From a virus: a stretch of DNA of 23,895 nt. Each line of letters opens with the position of its first letter. Position 1 is the stretch's first letter. The stretch is from the IMG/VR virus record IMGVR_UViG_3300037805_000069, positions 1 to 23,895 of that record. One strand, written 5' to 3'. Below are positions 954 to 23,895 of this stretch, piece by piece. The notes under the pieces were generated by a model that saw only the letters and a list, made by a program, of their open reading frames with translations, was not told the origin of the DNA and did no database searches. The position numbers were made by a program, and so were the translations under genes.

Positions 954-1436
954 ATGTTAACAGAATTTAAAGATATAATTGAAGTAACTTTAGAACACGA
1001 GGGTGGATATGTTAATGACCCTGACGATTTAGGTGGGGAGACTAACTTTGGCATAACCAAACGATTTTATCCTGACGTAGATATTAAAAATATGCTAAAA
1101 ACTGAAGCAGTTACTATTTATAGAAGAGATTATTGGGATAAATACCACACTGACGACTTACCTGATAATTTAAAACATATATATTTTGATATGAGCGTTA
1201 ACCAAGGCAATAAAACAGCAGTTAAAATATTGCAGAGAGCTGCTAATGCAAAGGGAGCCAATCTCACAGTAGATGGTGGGTTTGGGCCATATACAGTAAT
1301 GGCTATAGGTAAATACAAACCATCATTAGAACGGGTTAGATCATATCGTGTATTATATTATGCGCAACTTGTTGCTAAAAAACCTGAACAAGAGAGATTT
1401 TGGTTTGGGTGGTATAGACGGAGTTTAGAAGTATGA
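954..1436 (+). CDS. Endolysin, glycoside hydrolase family 108 muramidase
   Basis: A 160-residue peptidoglycan hydrolase expected to cleave the glycan backbone at lysis. The N-terminal half has the GH108 signature EHEGGYVNDPDDLGGETNFG (residues 14-33). Glu16 in the EGGY motif is the expected catalytic acid. The C-terminal half (about 95-160, with TVDGGFGPYTVMAIG) matches the peptidoglycan-binding region usual in this family, and the length is normal. There is no signal peptide, so export would need a holin or another route, and no clear holin lies beside it. AGGA about 9 nt upstream supports the start. The stop overlaps the next start (ATGA), suggesting translational coupling to the small genes that follow. 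Confidence 0.9.
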   Translation: MLTEFKDIIEVTLEHEGGYVNDPDDLGGETNFGITKRFYPDVDIKNMLKTEAVTIYRRDYWDKYHTDDLPDNLKHIYFDMSVNQGNKTAVKILQRAANAKGANLTVDGGFGPYTVMAIGKYKPSLERVRSYRVLYYAQLVAKKPEQERFWFGWYRRSLEV

Positions 1437-1495
1437 TTAAATTAAAAGATATATTAAATGAAACAACTTTCACCGATAATGGTAAGAAAAAATGA
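1433..1495 (+). CDS. 20-residue peptide with capsid-targeting-like N-terminus
   Basis: A very short reading frame, easily missed. Its ATG overlaps the endolysin stop (ATGA) and its own TGA overlaps the next ATG. It encodes MIKLKDILNE followed by ten more residues. The first ten residues nearly duplicate the starts of two genes downstream (MIKLKDLLKE, MIKLKEMIHE). They resemble the T4 internal-protein capsid-targeting peptide (MKTYQEFIAE in IPIII), including glutamate at position 10. It may be a real peptide or the remnant of a longer internal protein. Its seamless overlaps on both sides favour translation. Confidence 0.5.
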   Translation: MIKLKDILNETTFTDNGKKK

Positions 1496-1644
1496 GAAGT
1501 ATATCTTGGGATCTACAGAAGTATTCTGAATCATTAGAAAAGGCTGTTGCTGACAATGATGTAAATAAAACAACTGATATACTCGCTAATATTGGAAAGA
1601 TTCTTCAGCAAATTAATAAGGGATGGAAATATTTAGTAAAATGA
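1492..1644 (+). CDS. Small helical protein, unknown function
   Basis: A 50-residue frame starting at the ATG that overlaps the previous stop (ATGA) and ending in a TGA that overlaps the next ATG. It encodes MRSISWDLQKYSESLEKAVA followed by a second amphipathic segment (ILANIGKILQQINKGWKYLV), so it looks like a small two-helix protein. There is no independent ribosome-binding site, so translation would depend on coupling to the upstream frame. It carries no MIKLK leader. Perfect phasing within the overlap chain is the main evidence. I do not recognise a family. Confidence 0.55.
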   Translation: MRSISWDLQKYSESLEKAVADNDVNKTTDILANIGKILQQINKGWKYLVK

Positions 1645-2033
1645 TAAAACTTAAAGATTTACTAAAAGAATATATTGAACTTGACGTTAAGATTGGTGAC
1701 ACTGTTTTTATGGGTAAATTTAAAAATAAAAAAGTGGAAGTTAAATCTATAGGGTGGAATGAAAAAGGTGACCTACTTATTAATAATAAATCTGCTATGA
1801 AAATGAGAATCCCTAAACATGCTAAACAAGTTAAAGAACAAAATATAACTGAAATGGACAATGAAAAACGGGCATTTCTAATGTTGAAAATATATGGTCA
1901 AAGTTGGGGTGTGAATATGGGAAAGATATTTTCTGGTATTAATAAAGATAAACCCACATTGATTAAAAAAGGATTAAAAGAAATTAAAATTCTTAATAAA
2001 AAAATGGAAGAAATGATCGAGGAGTTGATATGA
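1641..2033 (+). CDS. Putative head-packaged small protein (MIKLKDLLKE leader)
   Basis: A 130-residue protein. An in-frame ATG 18 nt earlier exists, but I chose the ATG at 1641 because it overlaps the preceding TGA in the ATGA pattern of this cluster and gives MIKLKDLLKEYIELD, matching the leaders of two neighbours. The leader resembles a T4-type capsid-targeting sequence, with L-K-E at residues 8-10. The residue after the possible cut is Tyr rather than the preferred Ala/Gly/Ser, so processing is uncertain. The body has a small beta-rich segment (VKIGDTVFMGKFKNKKVEVKSIGW), then lysine-rich helices. That resembles basic internal proteins, but no specific family is recognised. Confidence 0.65.
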   Translation: MIKLKDLLKEYIELDVKIGDTVFMGKFKNKKVEVKSIGWNEKGDLLINNKSAMKMRIPKHAKQVKEQNITEMDNEKRAFLMLKIYGQSWGVNMGKIFSGINKDKPTLIKKGLKEIKILNKKMEEMIEELI

Positions 2034-2302
2034 TTAAATTAAAAGAAATGATACATGAAGATCATATAACTGAAGGTGATGATGTACAAAAAGTGTATGA
2101 TAAGCATATGGAAGTGTTGAAAAGTGGAGCAGACTTTATAGGTAAAATTAGAACAGGTAAATCGTGGCATGAACTAGAAAAGTTGGTGAATAAAAGCAGC
2201 GATTCATTCCTTAAAAAGAAATTCAAAGAATTTGAAAAAGCTAGACTCAAAACATCACAAGCTGGTAGCATGTTAACGTTGTATTTGAATAATAAAAGAT
2301 GA
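2030..2302 (+). CDS. Putative head-packaged small protein (MIKLKEMIHE leader)
   Basis: A 90-residue, lysine-rich, mostly helical protein. The start overlaps the previous stop (ATGA) and has GAGGAG 5-6 nt upstream, so this start is firm. The N-terminus MIKLKEMIHEDHITEG carries the leader shared with two upstream frames. It also has I-T-E|G at residues 13-16, which fits the gp21 rule of Leu/Ile-x-Glu before Ala/Gly/Ser. After cleavage a basic polypeptide of about 75 residues would remain. A role as an internal head protein delivered with DNA is an inference from the leader only. Confidence 0.65.
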   Translation: MIKLKEMIHEDHITEGDDVQKVYDKHMEVLKSGADFIGKIRTGKSWHELEKLVNKSSDSFLKKKFKEFEKARLKTSQAGSMLTLYLNNKR

Positions 2303-2336
2303 TGTTGAAATTAACAATTAATTAGAAGAAAATAAA

Positions 2337-4796
2337 ATGATAGATAATTTAACTGGAGAATTAATTAGACCCTTTTTAGATGAGGGTTCTACTAAAATTA
2401 AGAAAGTAGTAGCTATATACCCCGGTAGATTTCAACCGTTCGGGCCACACCACAAAGCTGTGTATGATAAATTAAATAAAATGTTTGATGATGTGTATAT
2501 ATCAACATCTAATATACAAAAACCACCAAGGCATCCTTTAAATTTTAAAGAAAAGGCAGTCCACATATCGAAAATGGGAATACCTAAAAATAAAATTGTA
2601 GAAGAGAGGAGTCCATATGCAGCAATTAACATATTAAAGAACTTCAACTCAGATACAACTACAGTGGTATATATAGTAGGGGCTAAAGATAAGGGCAGGT
2701 TATCTGGTGGTAGAAAGAAAGATGGAAGCCCATCATATTTTCAAGACTATAAGAAGAATAAAAATAAATTGAGTGGTTTTAAAGACCATGGATATATATT
2801 AGTAGCACCACACGTATCTATAAAAGTTGACGGTGAAGATGTGAGTGGAACGGTTATGAGAAATATATTAGGATCGTCTAAGTATAGTGATGATCAACGT
2901 GTTGATATATTTAAAAAGACTTTTGGTTATTTTAATGAGAAAATATACAATATGATGGTTGATAATTTTAAAGGTATGTCTGAAAATTTTACAATAACAT
3001 ATGAAATGATTGATGATTTCATATTAGATACTGATATAACATCCATCATAAAAGAAAGCAGTACTACATCTGTTGGTGTAGCTAAAAGTGGAATAGATGA
3101 CGGTGTACGTTTTTTTTGGGGCAATGTGAAGTCATACAAACGTCAAACTGAAAAAGTTGCTAAGAAATTGGGTATGGTAGTTGTAGATTATATAATGAAA
3201 TCTGATATGTTCGATCATAATACAGAAACCACTTACCCCAAAGGTCCAGTAGGTTCAGTATCATACGCACCATCTGGTGTAGTGGGTAAAAAGAGTGGAA
3301 CAAAGGTATTTGAATTGGATAATATGTTCGATGCTTTTGATGAGTGGGATAACCATATATCAAATGTAGTGTTAAAAAGTTTAGGTTGGGAAATTATAGA
3401 TTACTTAGGCGCCGAAAATGTATTTTTAGATGCAAATGCGTCATATATAGATGATTTAAAGGATGCCCAGAATGTCCCAGAAGATGTTAAGGAAAAAAAT
3501 CAGAATAAAGATGGGAGTGTTAGTGAGCGAATCAGTATACTAGACGATGTCGCTTTATTGTTAATGGAGGGTGGAAGTTTTGGACATCTCCAACATCCGT
3601 TTGATAATAAAAATCTAACATTTAGCGATTTTAAGCAAATGATTACTATGGGATTGAGTGGTCGACTGGATGTAGAAGGGAACGTTACCGAAAAGACTGA
3701 TGGTCAAGCTATTGCTATATCTTGGAAAAATAATAAACTAATAGCGGCACGTAATAAGGGCGACCGGAAAAACTTTGGAGAGAATGCGTTGGATATAAAC
3801 GGCATGATATCTAAATTCGAAGGTCGGGGTGATATTAGAGATGCGTTTGTATTCTCAATGAAAGATTTAGAGAAAGCGGTATCAGGATTATCTGATGCTC
3901 AGAAAACTAAAGTATTCGCTGAAGGTGAAAAGTTTATGAATTTAGAGATAATATGGCCAGCATCGTCTAATGTTATAAATTATGACAAGGCAGTGCTCCA
4001 ATTTCACGGAAGCACTAGATATGACAAGGATGGTAATCCTATTGAATATATAAAAGAAGATGCTAGAGTGTTAGAGGGGATGATCAAACAAATCAATCAA
4101 CACATTCAAAAGAAATTTACTATAATTAAACCTCAAGTGTTATCTATCCCAAAACATCAAGATTTTAGTAAAAAACGGAAATATTTTTTATCAAAGTTGA
4201 CAAAATTGCAAAAACAATACAACCTATCAGACGATGATCAATTTGGAATGTACCACCAAAGATTTTGGGAGGAATTTGTATATAACGCATCTAAACAATA
4301 TAAATATAAGATTAAAGGAAACGTTTTACGAGGTTTGACTAAAAGGTGGGCGTTCTTTGATAAGTCATATAAAGTATCTAATATAAAAAAAGACATTGAT
4401 AATGATAAATTTTTAGATTGGGCGTTAACATTTGATAAGAAGGACCATAAAAAATGGGTATCTCAAAACATGATGCCTTTTGAACGATTATTCTTTGAGC
4501 TAGGTGCTGAAATTCTTTCAAACATGAGCGGATTCTTAGCAGCAAATCCTGATGATGCAGTTCAAAGTATAAAAAAAGAAATTGAGAAAAATATTAAGGA
4601 TATTAGGAAGGCTAAAGATCCTAAACAAATAAATTTATTAAGGCAACAACTGGAAAAAATACAATCATATGGTGGTATGGATAAGATAGTACCATCAGAG
4701 GGTTTAACATTTTTATATAAGGGTGAATTATATAAAATTACAGGGAATTTTGGTCCGATAAATGGGTTATTGGGAATTTTAAAATTTAGTAGATAA
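2337..4796 (+). CDS. NMNAT-like nucleotidyltransferase fused to KxDG ligase-like domain
   Basis: An 819-residue, apparently bifunctional protein. Residues 20-215 form an HxGH-class nucleotidyltransferase domain related to NMNAT/NadR. VVAIYPGRFQPFGPHHK lies at 24-40 and the second signature SGTVMRN at 170-176. The usual HxGH reads GPHH, so the first His is replaced. Residues about 430-800 carry nucleic-acid-ligase-type motifs: KTDG at 453-456 (nucleotidyl-lysine K453), ARNKG and FAEGEKFMNLEIIWP downstream. The C-terminus has the pattern YKGELYKITGNFGPINGLLG. The N-terminus ends in F-L-D-E|G at 13-17, a canonical prohead-protease site, suggesting head packaging. Roles in NAD salvage or repair of nicked RNA or DNA are inferences. 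It follows the small leader-bearing genes and has a weak ribosome-binding site (AGAAGAA). Confidence 0.8.
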   Translation: MIDNLTGELIRPFLDEGSTKIKKVVAIYPGRFQPFGPHHKAVYDKLNKMFDDVYISTSNIQKPPRHPLNFKEKAVHISKMGIPKNKIVEERSPYAAINILKNFNSDTTTVVYIVGAKDKGRLSGGRKKDGSPSYFQDYKKNKNKLSGFKDHGYILVAPHVSIKVDGEDVSGTVMRNILGSSKYSDDQRVDIFKKTFGYFNEKIYNMMVDNFKGMSENFTITYEMIDDFILDTDITSIIKESSTTSVGVAKSGIDDGVRFFWGNVKSYKRQTEKVAKKLGMVVVDYIMKSDMFDHNTETTYPKGPVGSVSYAPSGVVGKKSGTKVFELDNMFDAFDEWDNHISNVVLKSLGWEIIDYLGAENVFLDANASYIDDLKDAQNVPEDVKEKNQNKDGSVSERISILDDVALLLMEGGSFGHLQHPFDNKNLTFSDFKQMITMGLSGRLDVEGNVTEKTDGQAIAISWKNNKLIAARNKGDRKNFGENALDINGMISKFEGRGDIRDAFVFSMKDLEKAVSGLSDAQKTKVFAEGEKFMNLEIIWPASSNVINYDKAVLQFHGSTRYDKDGNPIEYIKEDARVLEGMIKQINQHIQKKFTIIKPQVLSIPKHQDFSKKRKYFLSKLTKLQKQYNLSDDDQFGMYHQRFWEEFVYNASKQYKYKIKGNVLRGLTKRWAFFDKSYKVSNIKKDIDNDKFLDWALTFDKKDHKKWVSQNMMPFERLFFELGAEILSNMSGFLAANPDDAVQSIKKEIEKNIKDIRKAKDPKQINLLRQQLEKIQSYGGMDKIVPSEGLTFLYKGELYKITGNFGPINGLLGILKFSR

Positions 4797-7631: not shown

Positions 7632-9461
7632 ATGGATAATAAAAAATCAATACGGTCGAGATTAGCTAGACTATTTTCAACAAACGTTATAGTGCGAAAT
7701 GTTGGTGGTAAGAAGTTAAAGGTAGCTGATATGAATCGTGTACAATCTAACACTCAGCGAAATCTTACGGATAGATTTACGCGAATGTATTCGAATCTAC
7801 AAGGATCATCAGCATATTCAGATCAAACTTTAAGGTTAGCTCAACGAATATCACTATTTAACGATTATGAGGAAATGGATAGTGACCCTATTATAGGGTC
7901 AGCCCTTGACATTTATGCAGATGAATCGACTATGAAATCAGAATATGGTAATGTGCTAGAAATAAAGTCTGAAAATAGCAATATACATGATATATTGCAT
8001 AATTTATTCTACGATGTGTTGAATATCGAATTTAACTTGTGGCCGTGGGTTAGAAATATGTGTAAATATGGTGATTTCTACTTACAGTTAGATATTAGTG
8101 ATAAATATGGGGTCACTAATGTATTCCCTATGTCAGCTTATGATGTTAATAGAATAGAAGGATTAGACCCAGATAACCCATACAGCGTTAAGTTCACAGT
8201 TGAGCAAGGAAATACCAGACATCATGCACATACATCAACTATTAGTAAAGAGTTGGAAAACTTCGAAGTAGCACATTTCAGATTACTATCAGATTCCAAC
8301 TTAATCCCTTATGGCAAATCAATGATCGAGAGTGGTCGAAAGGTGTGGAAGCAACTTTCACTTATGGAAGATGCCATGCTAATTCATCGCATTATGAGAG
8401 CGCCTGAAAAACGGTCATTTAAAGTTGATATAGGTAATATCCCACCACATGAAATTGATAGTCATATGAAAAAGATTATTACAACAATGAAAAAGGTACC
8501 AATCGTTGATCAAGAAACTGGTGAGTATAATTTAAAATATAATATGCAAAACCTAACTGAAGATTTTTTCTTTCCAGTTCGTGGTGGTGATAGTGGAACG
8601 GAAGTTGAAACTTTGAGCGGTTTAGAATTTAACGCTATTGATGATATAGAATATTTACGCAATAAAATGTTAGCATCATTACGTATCCCCAAAGCATTTT
8701 TAGGTTATGAAGAAGAATTGAACGCTAAGGCAACACTAGCTGCAGAGGATGTTCGATTTGCGAGAACAATTGAGCGTATTCAACGAATAGTCGTTAGTGA
8801 GTTAACTAAAATAGCTATAATTCATTTATATGCACAAGGATATACAGATCAAGACCTTGTTGATTTTGAATTAGGATTGACAAGCCCTTCTACAATATAC
8901 GAGCAGGAAAAAATAGAGCTATGGTCATCTAAAGTGGACTTAGCATCTAGTATGGTTGATAATAAGTTACTATCGACTGAGTTTATATACAATCAAATAT
9001 TCGGATTTTCTGATGACGATAAACTTAAAATGCGTAAGCAAGTGGTAGATGATCAAAAACGAATATACAGGTATGAAGCTATATCATCAGACGGGATAGA
9101 CCCAGCATCTCAGGGAAGTTCCGGTGCAGATGATTTTGGTGAAGATGGTATAGACTCTCGAACTGATATGTATAGAACTGGTGATGAGCTCGGACCTGAA
9201 GGAGGATCACTCCCAGGAGGTCAACCTGGAGCAGGTCGCCCGAAAGAAGCCCCTAAATATGATACTGAGAGTAGCGCTAGAGGAAAAGACCCTATAGGTA
9301 AACACGGAATGAAACGTGAAGCTGTATACAAGTCCAAACGGCAGCGTGATGATATCGTTAATAGTATGGGAAAATTAGCTACAGCTACTATAGGATTGTT
9401 AAATGAGGCTGATGAGTTAAAAGATGAATATGAAAATGAAATATCATCTTCAAATGGTTAA
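7632..9461 (+). CDS. gp20: Portal vertex protein
   Basis: A 609-residue dodecameric portal, the DNA entry/exit ring on which the prohead core assembles and the terminase docks. It shows T4-type portal features: an N-terminal DRFTRMYSNLQ region, then YEEMDSDPIIGSALDIYADES, the long central wing and clip, and the conserved KMLASLRIPKAFLGYEEELN segment. It is longer than T4 gp20 (524). The extra length is mainly a glycine/proline-rich C-terminal tail (about 495-550, GPEGGSLPGGQPGAG) and a final charged helix. The C-terminus contains L-N-E|A, a possible protease site. AGAGG upstream supports the start. Assignment rests on sequence pattern and on its position between terminase and protease. Confidence 0.93.
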   Translation: MDNKKSIRSRLARLFSTNVIVRNVGGKKLKVADMNRVQSNTQRNLTDRFTRMYSNLQGSSAYSDQTLRLAQRISLFNDYEEMDSDPIIGSALDIYADESTMKSEYGNVLEIKSENSNIHDILHNLFYDVLNIEFNLWPWVRNMCKYGDFYLQLDISDKYGVTNVFPMSAYDVNRIEGLDPDNPYSVKFTVEQGNTRHHAHTSTISKELENFEVAHFRLLSDSNLIPYGKSMIESGRKVWKQLSLMEDAMLIHRIMRAPEKRSFKVDIGNIPPHEIDSHMKKIITTMKKVPIVDQETGEYNLKYNMQNLTEDFFFPVRGGDSGTEVETLSGLEFNAIDDIEYLRNKMLASLRIPKAFLGYEEELNAKATLAAEDVRFARTIERIQRIVVSELTKIAIIHLYAQGYTDQDLVDFELGLTSPSTIYEQEKIELWSSKVDLASSMVDNKLLSTEFIYNQIFGFSDDDKLKMRKQVVDDQKRIYRYEAISSDGIDPASQGSSGADDFGEDGIDSRTDMYRTGDELGPEGGSLPGGQPGAGRPKEAPKYDTESSARGKDPIGKHGMKREAVYKSKRQRDDIVNSMGKLATATIGLLNEADELKDEYENEISSSNG

Positions 9462-10771: not shown

Positions 10772-10960
10772 ATGCCATTTCAAGATAAAAAGAAATCCTA
10801 TATGGATACCCTTTTTAGTATCACTACGCTATTTAAACGATGGTATATTGAGATACAGAATAAGGACGTTGATAAAAATTACATGATATCTAAGCTCAAC
10901 TATTGGATATATGTGATGGAAAACTTAAAAAAAGAAATAATGATGGAGAAATCAAAATGA
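10772..10960 (+). CDS. Small protein of unknown function upstream of protease
   Basis: A 62-residue protein (MPFQDKKKSYMDTLFSITTL...) rich in aromatic and basic residues, apparently two helices. The ribosome-binding site is weak (TTAGG). The stop overlaps the protease start in an ATGA junction, which argues that this frame is translated and coupled to the protease. The length is similar to T4 gp67 (about 80 residues), but there is no convincing sequence resemblance. No function assigned. Confidence 0.65.
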   Translation: MPFQDKKKSYMDTLFSITTLFKRWYIEIQNKDVDKNYMISKLNYWIYVMENLKKEIMMEKSK

Positions 10961-11553
10961 AAAAGCAATTGTTAATCGATTATTTACCATTCGAGGTATC
11001 TCGCGAGCAAATTAACGAGGCTGCTAAAGTTGGAGGACCTCTAAGGGTTCAGGGTGTGTTACAACGAGCTAATGCTAAAAATCAAAACGGTAGAGTGTAC
11101 CCTCGAAAGATTTTGGTTAGGGAAGCTGGTAAATACACAGATAACTTCATTACTCAAAAAAGAGCATTAGGTGAGTTAGATCACCCAGACAGCTCTGTAG
11201 TGAATTTACAAAACACATCACATAATGTAACTGAAATGCACTGGGAAGGTGATAATCTAGTAGGTACTGTTGAAGTTTTAGGGACACCTGCAGGTAATAT
11301 ATTAAAAGAATTGTTTAAAGCTGGAATTAAACTTGGGATTTCATCTAGAGGGTTAGGTTCTGTCGAATCTGCTAATGAATCTGGAGCCCAAGAGGTACAG
11401 GATGACTTCGAACTTATAGCGTTTGACTTTGTTAGTAACCCAAGCACACATGGTGCGTTTTTATACCCAGTAAATGAGAGTGTCGATAAATCAACATGTG
11501 ATAAATATTGCAATATTGAAAACATCATTAACGATATCATTAGAGGTAAATAA
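10957..11553 (+). CDS. gp21: Prohead core protease
   Basis: A 198-residue serine protease that matures the prohead by cutting after Leu/Ile-x-Glu. I chose the ATG at 10957 because it overlaps the previous TGA and has GATGGAGAA 5-8 nt upstream; an in-frame ATG at 10903 is inside the previous gene. Catalytic features: H76 in GELDHPDSS and S129/S130 in GISSRGLG, as in herpesvirus/T4-type prohead proteases, with acidic residues in the later DDFELIAFDFVSNPS segment. The N-terminus contains I-N-E21|A22, a fitting self-processing site. The length is close to T4 gp21 (212). Substrates in this window probably include gp22, gp23 and several small proteins. Confidence 0.93.
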   Translation: MKKQLLIDYLPFEVSREQINEAAKVGGPLRVQGVLQRANAKNQNGRVYPRKILVREAGKYTDNFITQKRALGELDHPDSSVVNLQNTSHNVTEMHWEGDNLVGTVEVLGTPAGNILKELFKAGIKLGISSRGLGSVESANESGAQEVQDDFELIAFDFVSNPSTHGAFLYPVNESVDKSTCDKYCNIENIINDIIRGK

Positions 11554-11933
11554 TGAATTTAAATAAATGGAAAGATTATAGGATTCAACAGCTAACAGAA
11601 GGTGAAGATGATAAAACGTTAACAGGGTTATCAGCAGGAATGTTGGGAGCTGCTCAAAATTTAGTGCCTACACTAACAAACTTCACGAAATATATAGGTA
11701 TTATTATGAATCCTAATGATAATAAGAGGAGTTCAGGTGAAAATGAAATTCGAATCGAAACTGTTAGAAACGCCTTAGGTGATTTAAAAGAAAATGCTAA
11801 ATTGTTAGTTAAAAATTATAAATTTATCGTAAAATATATAGATGAGACGTACGATTTCAAAGTAGAAGATGAAGTTAAAGAGATGGTTGAATTAGAAGAA
11901 TTTTATTCTAAACATAATAAATTAAGAAAGTAA
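11553..11933 (+). CDS. Putative prohead/internal protein with LTE|G site
   Basis: A 126-residue protein whose ATG shares a base with the protease stop (TAATG), with AGAGG 7-8 nt upstream. The N-terminus MNLNKWKDYRIQQLTEGEDD has L-T-E16|G17, a canonical prohead-protease site after a basic amphipathic helix. The remainder is mostly helical, with one hydrophobic stretch (TGLSAGMLGAAQNLVPTLTN) and an acidic C-terminal helix. Immediate coupling to the protease and the cleavage site suggest a core or internal head protein. No family recognised. Confidence 0.7.
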   Translation: MNLNKWKDYRIQQLTEGEDDKTLTGLSAGMLGAAQNLVPTLTNFTKYIGIIMNPNDNKRSSGENEIRIETVRNALGDLKENAKLLVKNYKFIVKYIDETYDFKVEDEVKEMVELEEFYSKHNKLRK

Positions 11934-11946
11934 CTGGAGATATTAA

Positions 11947-12555
11947 ATGGATGATTTAAAGAAATTATTAAATGAAATTTGGGGTATAGGTGGTGTAGTA
12001 ACTCAAAAACCTATCAATTCAATGTCGTTAAGGGATTTAGTAGAAGAGAAATGGGTAGGTGAAGAAGATAGGAAGGTGGACACTGGGACTTTCTTAGAAG
12101 AAGTATCTAAATACGGAAAGTTGGGTGAGTTGATATATAGAGACACACCATTACGAGACGTTGCTAAAGGATTATCTGAGTTGTGCCAAAAAGCAAAAGC
12201 CCACACCCTTCAAGAAACTGACGATTGGTTTGATAGAATTACTATTAATAAGAATATGAAGATGCTAGAAAACCAATCTCATGAATTTATTAAAATCGCT
12301 AAGGATGCTAATGCGTTACAACAACGCATGGAGGGTTTGTATGAAGATATGGGTCACATTTTAAATAGATATTATGATATTAGTGAGGATGTACCCAACG
12401 ACCACACTGTAGCTGAGGGCAAATATCAGGATTTCTTCGCAAAAGCTCTTAAAAAGTTCGGAGCATCATCACCAGCTGATATGGATGATGAAAAAAAGAA
12501 AAAGTTTTTTAATTGGATAGATGATAATTATAAAAGTGAAATTGAGAAGAGCTAA
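11947..12555 (+). CDS. Unknown helical protein with C-terminal FFAKALKKFG-type module
   Basis: A 202-residue protein, start supported by CTGGAGA about 7 nt upstream. The N-terminus (MDDLKKLLNEIWG) again resembles the capsid-targeting leaders of this window, but Ile after LNE makes cleavage doubtful. The middle is a long helical region. The C-terminal ~45 residues (EGKYQDFFAKALKKFGASS, then acidic/lysine residues and FFNWIDDNYKSE) look like a compact module that I believe recurs at the ends of unrelated marine phage proteins, though I cannot verify this here. It lies between the protease and bS21 in an overlapping operon. Function unknown. Confidence 0.7.
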   Translation: MDDLKKLLNEIWGIGGVVTQKPINSMSLRDLVEEKWVGEEDRKVDTGTFLEEVSKYGKLGELIYRDTPLRDVAKGLSELCQKAKAHTLQETDDWFDRITINKNMKMLENQSHEFIKIAKDANALQQRMEGLYEDMGHILNRYYDISEDVPNDHTVAEGKYQDFFAKALKKFGASSPADMDDEKKKKFFNWIDDNYKSEIEKS

Positions 12556-12859: not shown

Positions 12860-13054
12860 GTGATATACGTAAAAGTAAAGAATAATAACATAGACTTTGC
12901 ATTGAGAATGTTGAAACGCAAAGTTAAAGATACCGGGTTGTTGGTTGAATTAAGAGAACGGCAATTCTACATAAAACCATCTACAGAACGTAGAGAACAT
13001 ATAAATAAAGTAAAATTACGCCGCAAATACGACAAAATCAGGTCAACTGATTAA
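12860..13054 (+). CDS. rpsU: Ribosomal protein bS21 (phage-encoded)
   Basis: A 64-residue homologue of small-subunit protein bS21, which sits near the anti-Shine-Dalgarno end of 16S rRNA and takes part in initiation. It starts at GTG with a strong GGAGG 4-5 nt upstream. Diagnostic features: an N-terminal KVKNNNIDFALRMLKRKV segment, TGLLVELRERQFYIKPS in the middle (the FYxKPSxxRR signature), then a basic C-terminal helix. Length matches cellular bS21 (about 55-70). Phage-encoded bS21 genes are known from environmental phages. It is the last gene before the scaffold/capsid unit, and a terminator-like hairpin overlaps its stop, so it belongs to the late protease operon. A role in biasing host ribosomes towards late phage messages is inference. 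Confidence 0.9.
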   Translation: MIYVKVKNNNIDFALRMLKRKVKDTGLLVELRERQFYIKPSTERREHINKVKLRRKYDKIRSTD

Positions 13055-13225: not shown

Positions 13226-14185
13226 ATGGATGATCTTTTAAAAGATGCTATTGCTGACGCAAAAGCGGTTCGTGAAACTGCATTGGCTAACGCTAAGATG
13301 GCTCTCGAAGAAGCATTTACTCCTCGTTTGAAGTCTATGCTTTCACAGAAGATTCAGAATGAAATGGAAGGTGATGAAATGGAAGATGAAGCTGAAGAAG
13401 AAGCAGAATATGCTGAAGAAGAAGTTGAGATCGAAGATGCACCTGAAGAAGAAGCTGGAGAAGAAATGGAAGCTGAAGCTGAAGTTGAAGATGAAATGGA
13501 AATGGAAGACGAAGCTGAAGAAGCTGATGAAGAAATGGAAATGGAAATGGAAGACGAAGCTGATGAAGCTGAAGCTGAAGCTGAAGAAGAAGAAGAATTA
13601 GATCTTGAATCTATTCTACGTGAACTTGAAGACGAAGTGAACGAAGAAGAATTTGAAACTGAAACTGAAACTGAAACTGAAGACGAAGGCGAAGAAGAGT
13701 TTGAGCTTGAAATCGAAGACGATGAAGTTGAAGGCGCCGAAGATGAAGAAGAACTTGATCTTGAAGAAGTGCTTAAGGCTTTAACAGAAGACGATGAAGA
13801 GTTAGATGAGGCAGATGATGTTGCCGCATTGAAAAGTGACCTCGAAGAGCACCGCAATGTAGTAAAATACTTACGTTCTAAGTTGAACGAAGTAAACCTA
13901 CTCAACGCTAAATTATTGTTTTCAAACAAACTATTTAAAAGTTATGGTTTGTCTAATGAGCAAAAAGTTAAAGTTGTTGAGACGTTTGACAGAGCACATA
14001 ACCTAAGAGAAGTAAAGTTAGTGTATTCTACACTTGCAGAATCTTTCAACGGTAAAGTGAAAATTAAAGAAAACAATAAAGGCTCAGCTTCAAAAGCAAT
14101 TGCCTCAACTAAACCTAAAACTGAAGTAATCAGTGAAGGTTCAGATATGAGAAATCGCTTTAAGAAGTTGGCCAACATTCTATAG
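13226..14185 (+). CDS. gp22: Prohead core scaffold protein
   Basis: A 319-residue scaffold around which the major capsid protein assembles; in T4 it is degraded to peptides at maturation. The N-terminus is helical (MDDLLKDAIADAKAVRETAL, then NAKMALEEAFTPRLKSMLS). The middle (about 45-195) is an extreme acidic low-complexity tract of Glu, Asp, Ala and Met, and the C-terminal 120 residues form a coiled-coil-like region. The gene follows bS21 and precedes gp23, as expected. Several Leu/Ile-x-Glu sites fit gp21 cleavage: LEE29|A30, LDE|A in EELDEADD, LAE|S in TLAESF, and ISE|G near the end. ATGGAGAA upstream supports the start. The acidic tract is longer than in T4 gp22 (269 residues in total). 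Confidence 0.92.
   Translation: MDDLLKDAIADAKAVRETALANAKMALEEAFTPRLKSMLSQKIQNEMEGDEMEDEAEEEAEYAEEEVEIEDAPEEEAGEEMEAEAEVEDEMEMEDEAEEADEEMEMEMEDEADEAEAEAEEEEELDLESILRELEDEVNEEEFETETETETEDEGEEEFELEIEDDEVEGAEDEEELDLEEVLKALTEDDEELDEADDVAALKSDLEEHRNVVKYLRSKLNEVNLLNAKLLFSNKLFKSYGLSNEQKVKVVETFDRAHNLREVKLVYSTLAESFNGKVKIKENNKGSASKAIASTKPKTEVISEGSDMRNRFKKLANIL
13363..13770 (+). repeat. Acidic low-complexity coding repeat in gp22
   Basis: Tandem GAAGCT, GAAATG and GAAACT units encode runs of Glu-Ala, Glu-Met and Glu-Thr. Examples are EMEMEMEDEADEAEAEAEEE and a fourfold ET run near 13657-13680. The repeat is probably prone to slippage in multiples of 3, and it produces long spurious reading frames on the opposite strand and in other frames. 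Confidence 0.8.
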
Positions 14186-14195
14186 GAGAATAGAC

Positions 14196-15794
14196 ATGGC
14201 AAAAGAACAATTCAGTTCAATCTCTAAGTTGATGGAAGGGTATAACCCACAGCGTCAGCTTTTAGAACAAACTAGACAACTTGTGTCTAAATGGGAACCA
14301 ACAGGTCTATTGGAAGGAATTGAAGATGAGAATAAAACTCACGGTATGGCTGTATTGCTTGAAAATCAAGCACGTCAGTTAATCGATGAAGCATCTTCAA
14401 CAGGAACTTCTGCGAATTCTGAAGAATGGAGTGGTGTCGCACTTCCTTTAGTACGTAGAATCTTTGGTGAATTAGCTGCACAGGAATTCGTTTCTGTACA
14501 ACCTATGAACCTTCCATCTGGACTTATTTTCTATCTAGATTTTAAATACGGAACAGCTCAACCTGGCTTTACTACAGGAACAGATATTCATGGTAATACT
14601 TCTGGTTCTGGTGATGCTTCGGGTGGGTTATATGGTGCTGGTAAATTCGGATATTCGGTTAACGATTCGTCCGCAACAGCAGCAGTTGCATCTACTGGGT
14701 CAGTGACTTGGGAAGATGTTGACTTCGAACCAGACCTTTCCGCATCATTAGGTGATTTAACAAAAGTTACTATCGCTAAATCTTCAGTAGCAGCTAATGC
14801 TGACTGGGATGGCGTGCGTGCTTTTGAAATCTCTGGTAGTGGTGTATCTGCACTTGACAATTATTACCCTGAATACTCAGCTGTATCTGGCAACAACGTA
14901 ACATTTATCGTCGACGCTACTGCTGCTACTATTGCTGGTAATATGACTGTTAAGTATCATGTACAACCTGCTAACGATTACTCGCGTGGTGATTTTGAAG
15001 ACTCATCCCCATCAGAGCCTGCTACTGATGCTGGTATCCCTGAAATTGATATTCAATTGAAATCAATTCCTATTGTTGCTAAAACTCGTAAGTTGAAAGC
15101 AGTATGGACACCAGAATTAGCTCAGGATCTTAACGCTTATCATAGTGTTGATGCAGAAGCAGAATTGACTTCAATGTTATCAGAATACATCTCAATGGAA
15201 ATTGATTTGGAAATTCTTGATATGTTGATGGCAAACGCTTCAGCTAAAACAGAAAAATGGTCAGCTAGACCGGGCTTTGAATATGATGCTGCAACGAACT
15301 TGTTCGCAGAATCTTCAGCTAACTCAAACGCATATACTAAAGGCGAATGGTTCCAAACACTTGGAAACAAAATTCAAGCTGTTAGTAACGCAATTCATCA
15401 GAAAACTCTTCGTGGTGGTGCAAACTTCCTCGTAGTTTCTCCTGAAGTGTCTACTATCATTGAATCCATTCCTGGATATGCTGCTGATACTGGTGCTGCA
15501 ACGTCTAATTCATATGCAATGGGTGTACAGAAAGTGGGTATGTTGAATAGCCGCTATAATGTATTTAAAAACCCATACATGCAAGGTAACACTATCTTAG
15601 CTGGTTTCCGTGGAAGTAATTTCCTAGAAACTGGTGCGGTTTATTCACCATATGTGCCATTAATCATGACACCATTGGTTTATGATCCAACCAACTTTAC
15701 ACCACGTAAAGGGGTAATGACGCGTTACGCTAAGAAAATGGTCAGATCTGAGTTTTACGGAAAAATCATCGTTGCAGATGTAAATTACGTTTAA
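14196..15794 (+). CDS. gp23: Major capsid protein
   Basis: A 532-residue HK97-fold major capsid protein of the T4 type. The N-terminal region (MAKEQFSSISKLMEGYNPQR...) precedes a canonical prohead-protease site I-D-E65|A66, the same position at which T4 gp23 is cut. Mature features follow: EEWSGVALPLVRRIFGELAAQEFVSVQPM and the long insertion rich in Gly/Ser (about 125-270). After that come IDIQLKSIPIVAKTRKLKAVWTPELAQDL and a C-terminal region with LVYDPTNFTPRKGVMTRYAKKM. Length is similar to T4 gp23 (521). AGGAGA 7 nt upstream supports the start. Codon choice (Arg mostly CGT, more C-ending codons) differs from neighbours, as expected for a very highly expressed gene. The unit ends at the terminator 20 bases downstream. 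Confidence 0.97.
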   Translation: MAKEQFSSISKLMEGYNPQRQLLEQTRQLVSKWEPTGLLEGIEDENKTHGMAVLLENQARQLIDEASSTGTSANSEEWSGVALPLVRRIFGELAAQEFVSVQPMNLPSGLIFYLDFKYGTAQPGFTTGTDIHGNTSGSGDASGGLYGAGKFGYSVNDSSATAAVASTGSVTWEDVDFEPDLSASLGDLTKVTIAKSSVAANADWDGVRAFEISGSGVSALDNYYPEYSAVSGNNVTFIVDATAATIAGNMTVKYHVQPANDYSRGDFEDSSPSEPATDAGIPEIDIQLKSIPIVAKTRKLKAVWTPELAQDLNAYHSVDAEAELTSMLSEYISMEIDLEILDMLMANASAKTEKWSARPGFEYDAATNLFAESSANSNAYTKGEWFQTLGNKIQAVSNAIHQKTLRGGANFLVVSPEVSTIIESIPGYAADTGAATSNSYAMGVQKVGMLNSRYNVFKNPYMQGNTILAGFRGSNFLETGAVYSPYVPLIMTPLVYDPTNFTPRKGVMTRYAKKMVRSEFYGKIIVADVNYV

Positions 15795-22271: not shown

Positions 22272-22874
22272 ATGCCAGATTATTATAAAATATATGATGA
22301 ATTGTGTACACACCGTAAAGGTGAAAGTAGAAGTACTTTAAATGGTGAATATTATGAGAATCATCACATTATTCCAAAAAGTTTAGGTGGATGTAATTCC
22401 AACTATAATTTGGTGTTATTGACTGCAAGAGAACACTTTTTTGCACATTTATTGTTATATAAACATTATAGAAAAATTGGTGGTGAATCTTTACGAAAAA
22501 TGTCTTTTGCATTAGTTAGTATGAAGGGAAACCCGACTGGAAAGAGAAATATTAAATTTTCAAGTAGAGATTATGGAGTTTTTAAAGAAGCTGCTATGAA
22601 TATGAATTTGGGTAGAAAGGTAAAAGATACATCTAACTATAAAGGTAAGAAATCTAATGAGCATAAGGAAAATATTAGAAAGGCAAGATTACATGCTGGA
22701 TCACATAGCGATGAGCGTAAACTAAATATATCATTGGGAAGACGTGGAATCACACCTAAGCATAATTTTGATAAAATTAAATATACCCATTGTAATAAAG
22801 AGGGTCAAATGATTGCTATGAAAAGGTGGCATTTTGATAATTGTAAGGAGATGATAAATGCCCAATTGGCGTAA
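22272..22874 (+). CDS. HNH homing endonuclease with NUMOD3-like repeats
   Basis: A 200-residue free-standing homing endonuclease. The HNH core is at 29-59 ([13 protein letters not shown]46, then [10 protein letters not shown]), with H31/H32, H55 and H59 as likely catalytic and metal residues. Residues about 110-165 carry NUMOD3-type DNA-binding repeats ([33 protein letters not shown]). The C-terminus has a zinc-finger-like motif ([19 protein letters not shown], 173-191) whose usual first cysteine is Tyr171. The start has AGGAG 7-8 nt upstream. It overlaps the next fibre gene by 17 nt. It is expected to cut a cognate site in related phages lacking it and spread by repair. Confidence 0.88.
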
Positions 22875-23895
22875 ATTAATTCAATCTGGAAGTTCAGCTG
22901 AACTTTCATCATTAACCACTACTGGAAACATAAGCGGTTCATCAACTTCAACTGGTTCGTTTGGACATGTATATGTTGATAGTAGATTAGGTATAGGAAC
23001 GCTCTCACCACAAAAAGGACTTCATTTAGAAGGAACTAGCGGACATGAAGATATACGACAAACAAAAACAGGAACAAGTGGTGATTGGATACATGATATT
23101 TCCGGTGATGGGAGATATAGGTTATATGATAATACTAATTCTAAATATATATTTAGTGTTGGATTAGATGCTGGTAGTGATTTATTAAGTTTAGAAGGTA
23201 ATAAAATAAGCGGCTCATCAACTTCAACTGGTTCATTCGGACATTTATATTTAGACACTCCTACCACTGACGAATCAGTGACAACATTTCTTGTATTAGA
23301 TAATGGTGATGTTAAAACAAGGACAAGTGGGGCTCAAGGAACTCAGGGAACTCAAGGAACAACTGGATCTACTGGATCTCAAGGAACAACTGGAACTCAA
23401 GGAACAACTGGATCTACAGGAACTCAAGGAACAACTGGATCTACTGGATCTCAAGGAACAACTGGATCTACTGGATCTCAAGGAACAACTGGTGGGAATG
23501 GAACTCAGGGAACTCAGGGAACTCAGGGAACAACAGGAACAACTGGTGGGAATGGAACTCAAGGAACAACAGGAACAACTGGATCCACTGGTGGGAATGG
23601 AACTCAAGGAACTCAAGGAACAACTGGATCCACAGGATCTACTGGTGGGAATGGAACTCAAGGAACAACTGGATCCACAGGATCCACTGGTGGGAATGGA
23701 ACTCAAGGAACAACTGGATCCACAGGATCTACTGGTGGGAATGGAACTCAAGGAACAACTGGATCTACTGGATCTACTGGTGGGAATGGAACTCAAGGAA
23801 CAACTGGATCCACAGGATCTACTGGTGGGAATGGAACTCAAGGAACTCAAGGAACAACTGGATCCACAGGATCTACTGGTGGGAATGGAACTCAA
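22858..23895 (+). CDS. Collagen-like tail fibre protein (3' partial)
   Basis: 346 codons are visible and the frame runs off the window. The start is the ATG with AAGGAG about 8 nt upstream, inside the end of the HNH gene. The N-terminus [20 protein letters not shown] resembles the fibre at 20680. Residues about 24-155 hold two copies of a [12 protein letters not shown](V/L)Y(V/L)D module separated by a [16 protein letters not shown]-type segment. From residue 158 on, 63 uninterrupted Gly-X-Y triplets ([15 protein letters not shown], one GAQ) form a collagen-like stalk with no proline. Presumably it is a long trimeric fibre ending in a receptor-binding tip beyond the window. Confidence 0.85.
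22930..22980 (+). repeat. Direct repeat copy 1 ([12 protein letters not shown] module)
   Basis: About 50 bases beginning ATAAGCGGTTCATCAACTTC, nearly identical to a second copy at 23206-23255. The few differences are mostly at third codon positions. Encodes the same peptide module in the collagen-like fibre, consistent with internal duplication. Confidence 0.75.
23206..23255 (+). repeat. Direct repeat copy 2 ([12 protein letters not shown] module)
   Basis: Second copy of the repeat at 22930-22980, starting ATAAGCGGCTCATCAACTTC, located about 70 bases before the collagen-like tract. A recombination target within the fibre gene. Confidence 0.75.
23329..23895 (+). repeat. Collagen-like coding repeat, 45/54-base higher-order period
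   Basis: Nine GGTGGGAAT units begin at 23491, 23545, 23590, 23644, 23689, 23734, 23779, 23824 and 23878, so the spacing is 45 or 54 bases, always a multiple of 9. Within each unit the triplets are [12 protein letters not shown] and GST, with an additional triplet block in the 54-base versions. The repeat is near-identical at DNA level and continues past the window end. Confidence 0.92.

Follow-up and report, generated by a model that had tools for sequence, protein, structure and literature searches.

Immediately after an endolysin gene in the virus record IMGVR_UViG_3300037805_000069 of IMG/VR (positions 1 to 23,895, the whole stretch being referred to as the window), three small reading frames start with nearly the same ten residues, MIKLKDILNE, MIKLKDLLKE and MIKLKEMIHE, and continue into different proteins, which raises the question of what this shared leader does. 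The 23.9-kb record represents a T4-like head module, with PHROG matches for the terminase, the portal, the gp21-like protease and the capsid protein. An earlier interpretation made from the DNA alone (the sequence-only reading) had proposed that the leader is a packaging tag comparable to that of the T4 internal proteins (IPs). Our analysis supports this proposal: the unrelated bodies behind the leader, its concentration between the genes for gp21 and the capsid protein, the junctions, a bias at residue 11, the basic bodies and the predicted detachment of the leader all point to a ten-residue capsid-targeting propeptide that is cut by a gp21-like protease, an interpretation to which we assign a probability of roughly 0.78.

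The three starts are present at 1433, 1641 and 2030, with the GH108 endolysin gene immediately upstream of the first, and Glu occupies residue 10 in all three leaders. The bodies share no similarity with one another, so that the sequence-only reading was correct on each of these points. A fourth leader of the same register and spacing, MDDLKKLLNE, starts at 11947 within the head operon. All window leaders contain [L/I]xE, with Thr, Tyr and Asp at position P1'. One detail did not hold: in the third protein, I-T-E|G (residues 13-15, positions 2066-2074), which had been read as a further protease-like site, is an insertion unique to this copy of 90 amino acids (aa). The two homologues of the 90-aa protein keep the leader and E10 and lack the five residues holding ITE|G. 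Close-relative searches returned no relative of the 90-aa protein and a single locus for the 130-aa protein; deeper homologues of both were drawn from the fetched loci by tblastn. The bodies of the window leader proteins matched no Pfam or PHROG family and are not homologues of IPI, IPII or IPIII, and a fold search of the PDB with the 130-aa and 90-aa models gave no match at E below 0.2. All four starts after the endolysin overlap the preceding stop codon as ATGA. The first leader frame has only 20 codons, too short for a protein as read; a run of six A is located at 1487-1492, and a 50-aa open reading frame (ORF), for which no homologue was found in any fetched locus, continues in the -1 frame after it. 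The first frame could be a remnant, or it could form one protein with the 50-aa ORF through a -1 slip or an indel in the A6 run, a place covered by a single contig.

Relatives of the window were fetched via the capsid protein or the endolysin and were hence not chosen for the leader. Among the frames starting with M[IVLM]KLK in these unbiased loci, with residues 1-5 thus fixed, residue 10 was Glu in 50 of 68, compared with 3-10% across residues 11-25; nearly all frames had L, I, M, V or F at residues 7 and 8. Synonymous codons vary at residues 2, 3, 4, 8 and 10 of these frames while the amino acids hold, indicating that selection acts on the peptide. A broader leader rule picked out 150 of 6109 candidate starts versus 29 of 11952 internal Met residues. 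The back-translated pattern MIKLKD[hydrophobic][hydrophobic]xE occurred in at least 120 stretches of IMG/VR, and the same codons in permuted order in 7. A search of 257 Gb of prokaryote genomes yielded 25 leader stretches. Several of them lie on contigs that carry the window phage's type of head genes and were binned with marine Flavobacteriales or other genomes, and most of the remaining ones look like chance starts. As judged from these comparisons, the leader is phage-specific and conserved at the protein level. Separately, leader contigs of the Flavobacteriales metagenome-assembled genome NAT55 (L368, L372 and L354), some with window-type head genes, give a weak hint at the host.

When sought on other proteins in related genomes, the leader was found on about 100 unrelated bodies: strict leaders are present on 232 distinct ORFs, which fall into 100 body clusters. 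In an alignment of 91 leader ORFs, residues 1-10 alone are conserved, M1, K3 and E10 being partly imposed by the selection rule. Pfam domains among the bodies include RimK-like ATP-grasp, Nudix, zeta toxin/AAA kinase, M23 with tail lysozyme, and phage lysozyme, and further GP88, OmpA and zincin-like metallopeptidase domains. A HAD-like class is also represented among the tagged enzymes, and a KptA/ART-like class by weak matches or motif only. The bodies are frequently basic (75% net positive versus 53%). According to tblastn, alignment and AlphaFold, the 130-aa protein is a mosaic of the leader, a beta module VGDTVFMGKFKNKKVEVKSI, a linker with NITE(71) and a helical module DEKRAFLMLKIYG. Module VGDTVFMGKFKNKKVEVKSI recurs in about 20 loci, ahead of a kinase, a metallopeptidase and a ligase-like protein, and the helical module stands behind a different N-terminus in two loci (L056 and L170). 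The case that would speak against a tag, a leader forming part of a folded domain, was also considered. In AlphaFold models of both window proteins, based on thin alignments, residues 1-13 had a predicted local distance difference test score (pLDDT) below 50 and were followed by a linker and then the body, which argues for a detached leader. PADLOC returned only single, weak matches. Two further features were observed in other loci. The motifs [RK]xFGEPLPTL and CxCGxxCCS follow the leader on many different bodies (L013:6284-6640, L009:1291-2721, L052:5129-5806). In L045:867-8623, several tandem head-operon genes with different bodies start with MKKSELRQIIREEIxxLxE; these starts may represent a second leader class, as their core L[KR]x[LIM][LI]xE matches the MIKLK leader.

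In 73 loci selected by their capsid protein, the leader was present on 63 of 257 genes (25%) between gp21 and the capsid protein, compared with 8 of 166 (5%) upstream and 7 of 398 (2%) downstream (Fisher p ~1e-20, a value that is too small because the loci are related). Without the conserved 202-aa family of the head operon, the counts were 41 of 221 genes between gp21 and the capsid protein versus 6 of 396. A protease of the gp21 family was found in 12 of 16 capsid-protein contigs and in 19 of 42 leader contigs, many of which are fragmentary. On the gene counts, the leader is a feature of the prohead-core block, yet it also occurs beyond this block, as in T4.

The protease sites of the phage were compared with the residues around the leader. 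The capsid protein of the window has a predicted cleavage site, QLIDE65|AS (codon 14388-14390), which aligns with that of T4 gp23, a protein cut at E65, and QLIDE|[AS] is kept in 78 of 79 relatives. Counted with one vote per body cluster, residue 11 of the leader proteins was S, A or G in 36%, compared with 15-24% at residues 12-20 (p 2.6e-4). In a zeta-like kinase family, [LIV]xE|G[VILK]xDxxIFKA is kept in 12 of 12 members with unrelated upstream parts. These are MIKLKDILNE, MIPFILKE in Pelagibacter phage HTVC008M, MKTFAELQE in Methylophilales phage Melnitz and, in others, long domains; the jumbo phage Atu_ph07 is also among the members. The Glu at this junction could instead be part of the kinase domain. 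Across 31 families, [LIVMF]xE was located no more than two residues from the junction in 129 of 198 homologues with divergent upstream sequence, compared with 33 and 15 in control windows. Additional [LIV]xE|[AGS] sites inside leader proteins were not enriched (0.216 versus 0.206 per 50 aa), and multiple cutting is therefore not claimed as a general property. PF03420 gave no match anywhere, controls included, so that its absence is uninformative.

Atu_ph07 encodes an array of about ten proteins, the first of which is the kinase homologue AUZ94865; they start with M[KR]W-x-QL[TN]E and carry the motif YRG[MI], and by this motif only, the array resembles ADP-ribosyltransferases. By accession order, it comprises about coding sequences (CDS) 53-62 and thus lies inside the block of CDS 31-76, of which 29 products have been identified in virions by mass spectrometry (PMC6102473).

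The closest counterpart of such a leader is found in T4. For the packaging of IPIII, its ten N-terminal residues are enough; targeting depends on residues 4 and 7 and processing on residues 8 and 10, and with Asp at residue 10 targeting persists while processing is lost (PMC9026906). The T-even IPs are diverse and have only the capsid-targeting sequence (CTS) in common (PMC3012670), and Ip1-3 block different GmrSD enzymes (PMC12373910). The sequence-only reading had pointed out the same shape and the shared Glu at residue 10. MIKLKDLLNE has the register of MKTYQEFIAE: positions 4, 7 and 8 are hydrophobic, and position 10 is Glu; M1 and E10 are the sole identities, and the two peptides are too short for a test of homology. 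Further parallels to IPI, IPII and IPIII are the ten-residue N-terminal leader on otherwise unrelated small basic proteins, the gp21-type protease and the gene order. In the transcription order of T4, ipIII and ipII come right after the lysozyme gene e, much as the window leader genes come after the endolysin; the three genes ipI, ipII and ipIII are some 30 kb away from gene 23, just as the leader genes are partly off the head block. In contrast to the T4 IPs, the leader here reads MIKLKD[LI][LI]xE, many bodies are multi-domain proteins or enzymes, and the location in the virion is a prediction. While roughly ten bodies have been reported for T-even phages (PMC12373910), about 100 body clusters were sampled here.

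An enzyme that loses a propeptide to the prohead protease is also known in T4, namely the injected ADP-ribosyltransferase Alt (PMC9026906). A similar cleavage is predicted for the enzymes here; these differ from Alt in class (Nudix, RimK-like, zeta/PNK-like, HAD-like and metallopeptidase), and no homologue of Alt was found by sequence. In phiKZ-type giant phages, internal, ejected proteins such as the substrates of SPN3US gp245 lose N-terminal propeptides after Glu, mostly long ones (111-254 residues; two of 20-24) with an S/A-x-E type motif (PMC10052503), whereas the phages studied here use a single short leader repeatedly, on many bodies. The nearest isolates by protease, Microcystis phage Mel-JY01 and Flavobacterium phage immuto, have a T4-like head operon with a few N-termini of the MISLKSLIK, MKKSQLRQIIKE and LADLLLEE types in the head region and, unlike the window, no repeated MIKLK family. 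No virion proteomes of HTVC008M, immuto or Mel-JY01 were found in the literature. The sequence-only reading had regarded these proteins as a kind not described for the lineage. This was correct in part: the T-even IPs are of the same kind (PMC3012670, PMC12373910); for the lineage itself, and for such a range of enzymes, no description was found. A literature search that omitted most subscription journals likewise returned no such leader outside T-even and phiKZ-type phages. What appears to be new is a different leader with a much larger range of cargo and apparent enzyme delivery, which on the available sequences would work like the T4 CTS.

Several observations weigh against a head-targeting propeptide. 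On contigs selected by the leader, 27 leader genes were located within 15 kb of gp21 compared with 26.4 expected, which is at chance, and the loci selected by the capsid protein were used alone as evidence of proximity. Agreement in strand with gp21 (50/51) was dropped as evidence, as 92-100% of the genes in these genomes run in one direction. Neither gp21 nor the capsid protein was seen on 21 of the 42 long leader contigs (a portal gene is present on two of the 21), and part of this set is of unproven type. In the set of divergent junctions, some cases may represent the leader shifted by the alignment. The Atu_ph07 array provides supporting context at the level of the gene cluster only. Residue 11 is not restricted to A, G or S, and this varied P1' would also suit a leader that is packaged in the head yet remains uncleaved, Glu10 merely aiding binding, as does the T4 variant with Asp10 that still targets without processing (PMC9026906). 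We consider an uncleaved tag to be unlikely in view of the bias of P1' towards S/A/G, the conservation of the junction despite swapped N-termini and the gp21-like protease that this operon also encodes.

Some leader genes are distant from the head genes, and some bodies are of lysozyme or M23 + tail-lysozyme type, usually tail or lysis proteins, with matches to tape-measure families. Both would be in line with an assembly tag for another part of the virion (neck, tail tip or baseplate) or for the head exterior. The likelihood of such a tag is nevertheless low, as leader genes cluster between gp21 and the capsid protein and are seldom seen further downstream among the neck and tail genes, and the protease-like E|S/A/G junctions would have no role; moreover, the T4 ip genes are likewise located away from gene 23. 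The spread of leader genes across the genome, together with Nudix, RimK and kinase cargoes that would also be sensible inside the cell, might point to a localisation or turnover tag in the infected cell (for a replication compartment, the membrane or a protease) unrelated to virions. The concentration in the prohead-core gene block, the occurrence on the conserved 202-aa head-operon protein and a spacing and P1' that fit the T4 rule for targeting and processing render this very improbable. It is extremely improbable that the leader is a translation cassette acting at the nucleotide level, with an ATGA-coupled start, A-rich early codons and a functionless peptide. The starts in the window are all ATGA overlaps, which helps to fix residue 2 as Ile, and codon 5 is AAA in 50 of 50 cases; the needs of a start site, however, poorly explain Glu10 and the hydrophobic pair at 7/8, the synonymous variation at residues 2, 3, 4, 8 and 10 leaves the amino acids constant, and permuted patterns of equal composition are rare.

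A capsid-targeting propeptide would act as follows. During prohead assembly the leader would bind the scaffold core via a hydrophobic face (residues 4, 7 and 8), and the protein attached to it would be carried into the prohead. The gp21-like protease would then cut after Glu10, as the sequence suggests, and the leader would be lost. The mainly basic cargo may stay with the packaged DNA and enter the host at infection, and recombination would place the reusable leader ahead of new bodies. The phages would thus seem to be equipped with a changing complement of small proteins and enzymes, putative injected anti-defence or takeover factors. A wider proposal is that marine T4-like phages use the leader as a general system for loading cargo, in which any gene acquiring it has its product packed into the head, every genome has a changing injected arsenal, and some multi-domain cargo is cut into pieces in the prohead at repeated [LIV]xE|[G/A/S] linkers; for this we see an even chance. 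Such an arsenal would comprise ATP-grasp ligases, Nudix hydrolases, zeta-like kinases, metallopeptidases, lysozymes and defence antagonists.

The features of the window and the Atu_ph07 array are listed in Table 1. The 819-aa protein next to the leader genes joins a cytidylyltransferase-like domain to a ligase-like KxDG domain and has a relative at the same place in Mel-JY01; by inspection only, it possesses a possible variant leader, MIDNLTGELIRPFLDE|G. Relatives of the 126-aa protein, located behind gp21, begin with W[KR]D[FWY]RLxE, and those of the 202-aa protein with MAKLKDLIKE and MSKKLKDLLSE. For the acidic protein in the scaffold position, no PHROG match was found. Further along the window, a bS21-like frame (12860-13054) has orthologues at the same place in relatives and an RpsU annotation in Mel-JY01; phage-encoded ribosomal proteins are known (PMC6375957). 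A frame with an HNH-like motif amid tail-fibre-like genes (22272-22874) may be a homing endonuclease, and a long collagen-like repeat (22858-23895) continues past the window end.

Table 1. Positions of the leader genes and neighbouring features; window coordinates unless an accession is given.
Feature	Position	Strand	Basis or remark
Endolysin, GH108 + PG_binding_3	954..1436	+	Pfam 1.3e-25
Leader frame 1, MIKLKDILNE + 10 residues, 20 aa	1433..1495	+	Reading frame MIKLKDILNETTFTDNGKKK*
50-aa ORF without leader	1492..1644	+	Between first and second leader frames
130-aa leader protein, MIKLKDLLKE	1641..2033	+	Leader 1641..1670; net charge +10
90-aa helical leader protein, MIKLKEMIHE, MIKLKEMIHEDHITEGDD	2030..2302	+	Leader 2030..2059; net charge +5
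819-aa cytidylyltransferase/nucleotidyltransferase + ligase-like protein	2337..4796	+	phrog_395 1.4e-6; PF01467 7.8e-4
Portal protein, gp20-like	7632..9461	+	phrog_213 4e-66
gp21-like head maturation protease, candidate processing enzyme	10954..11553	+	phrog_207 1.8e-54 (searched from 10903)
126-aa protein, N-terminus with KWKDYRIQQLTE|G	11553..11933	+	Inspection
202-aa conserved prohead-region protein, leader MDDLKKLLNE	11947..12555	+	Same register, head operon
Acidic protein in scaffold gp22 position	13226..14185	+	Position and composition
Major capsid protein, gp23-like	14196..15794	+	phrog_138 3.1e-75
Atu_ph07 array, first protein fused to zeta-like kinase	MF403008.1 39484-49507		Virion-protein gene block

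If the leader is indeed a capsid-targeting propeptide, a motif of ten residues would mark phage proteins delivered into the host ahead of all phage gene expression. In abundant uncultured phages, candidate injected anti-defence and takeover proteins could then be recognised by sequence, and many proteins without assignment would gain a possible function. Capsid targeting, known in T4 for a few small inhibitors, would widen to a broad and modular system of delivery, and there would be a second natural tag with which proteins can be loaded into phage heads.

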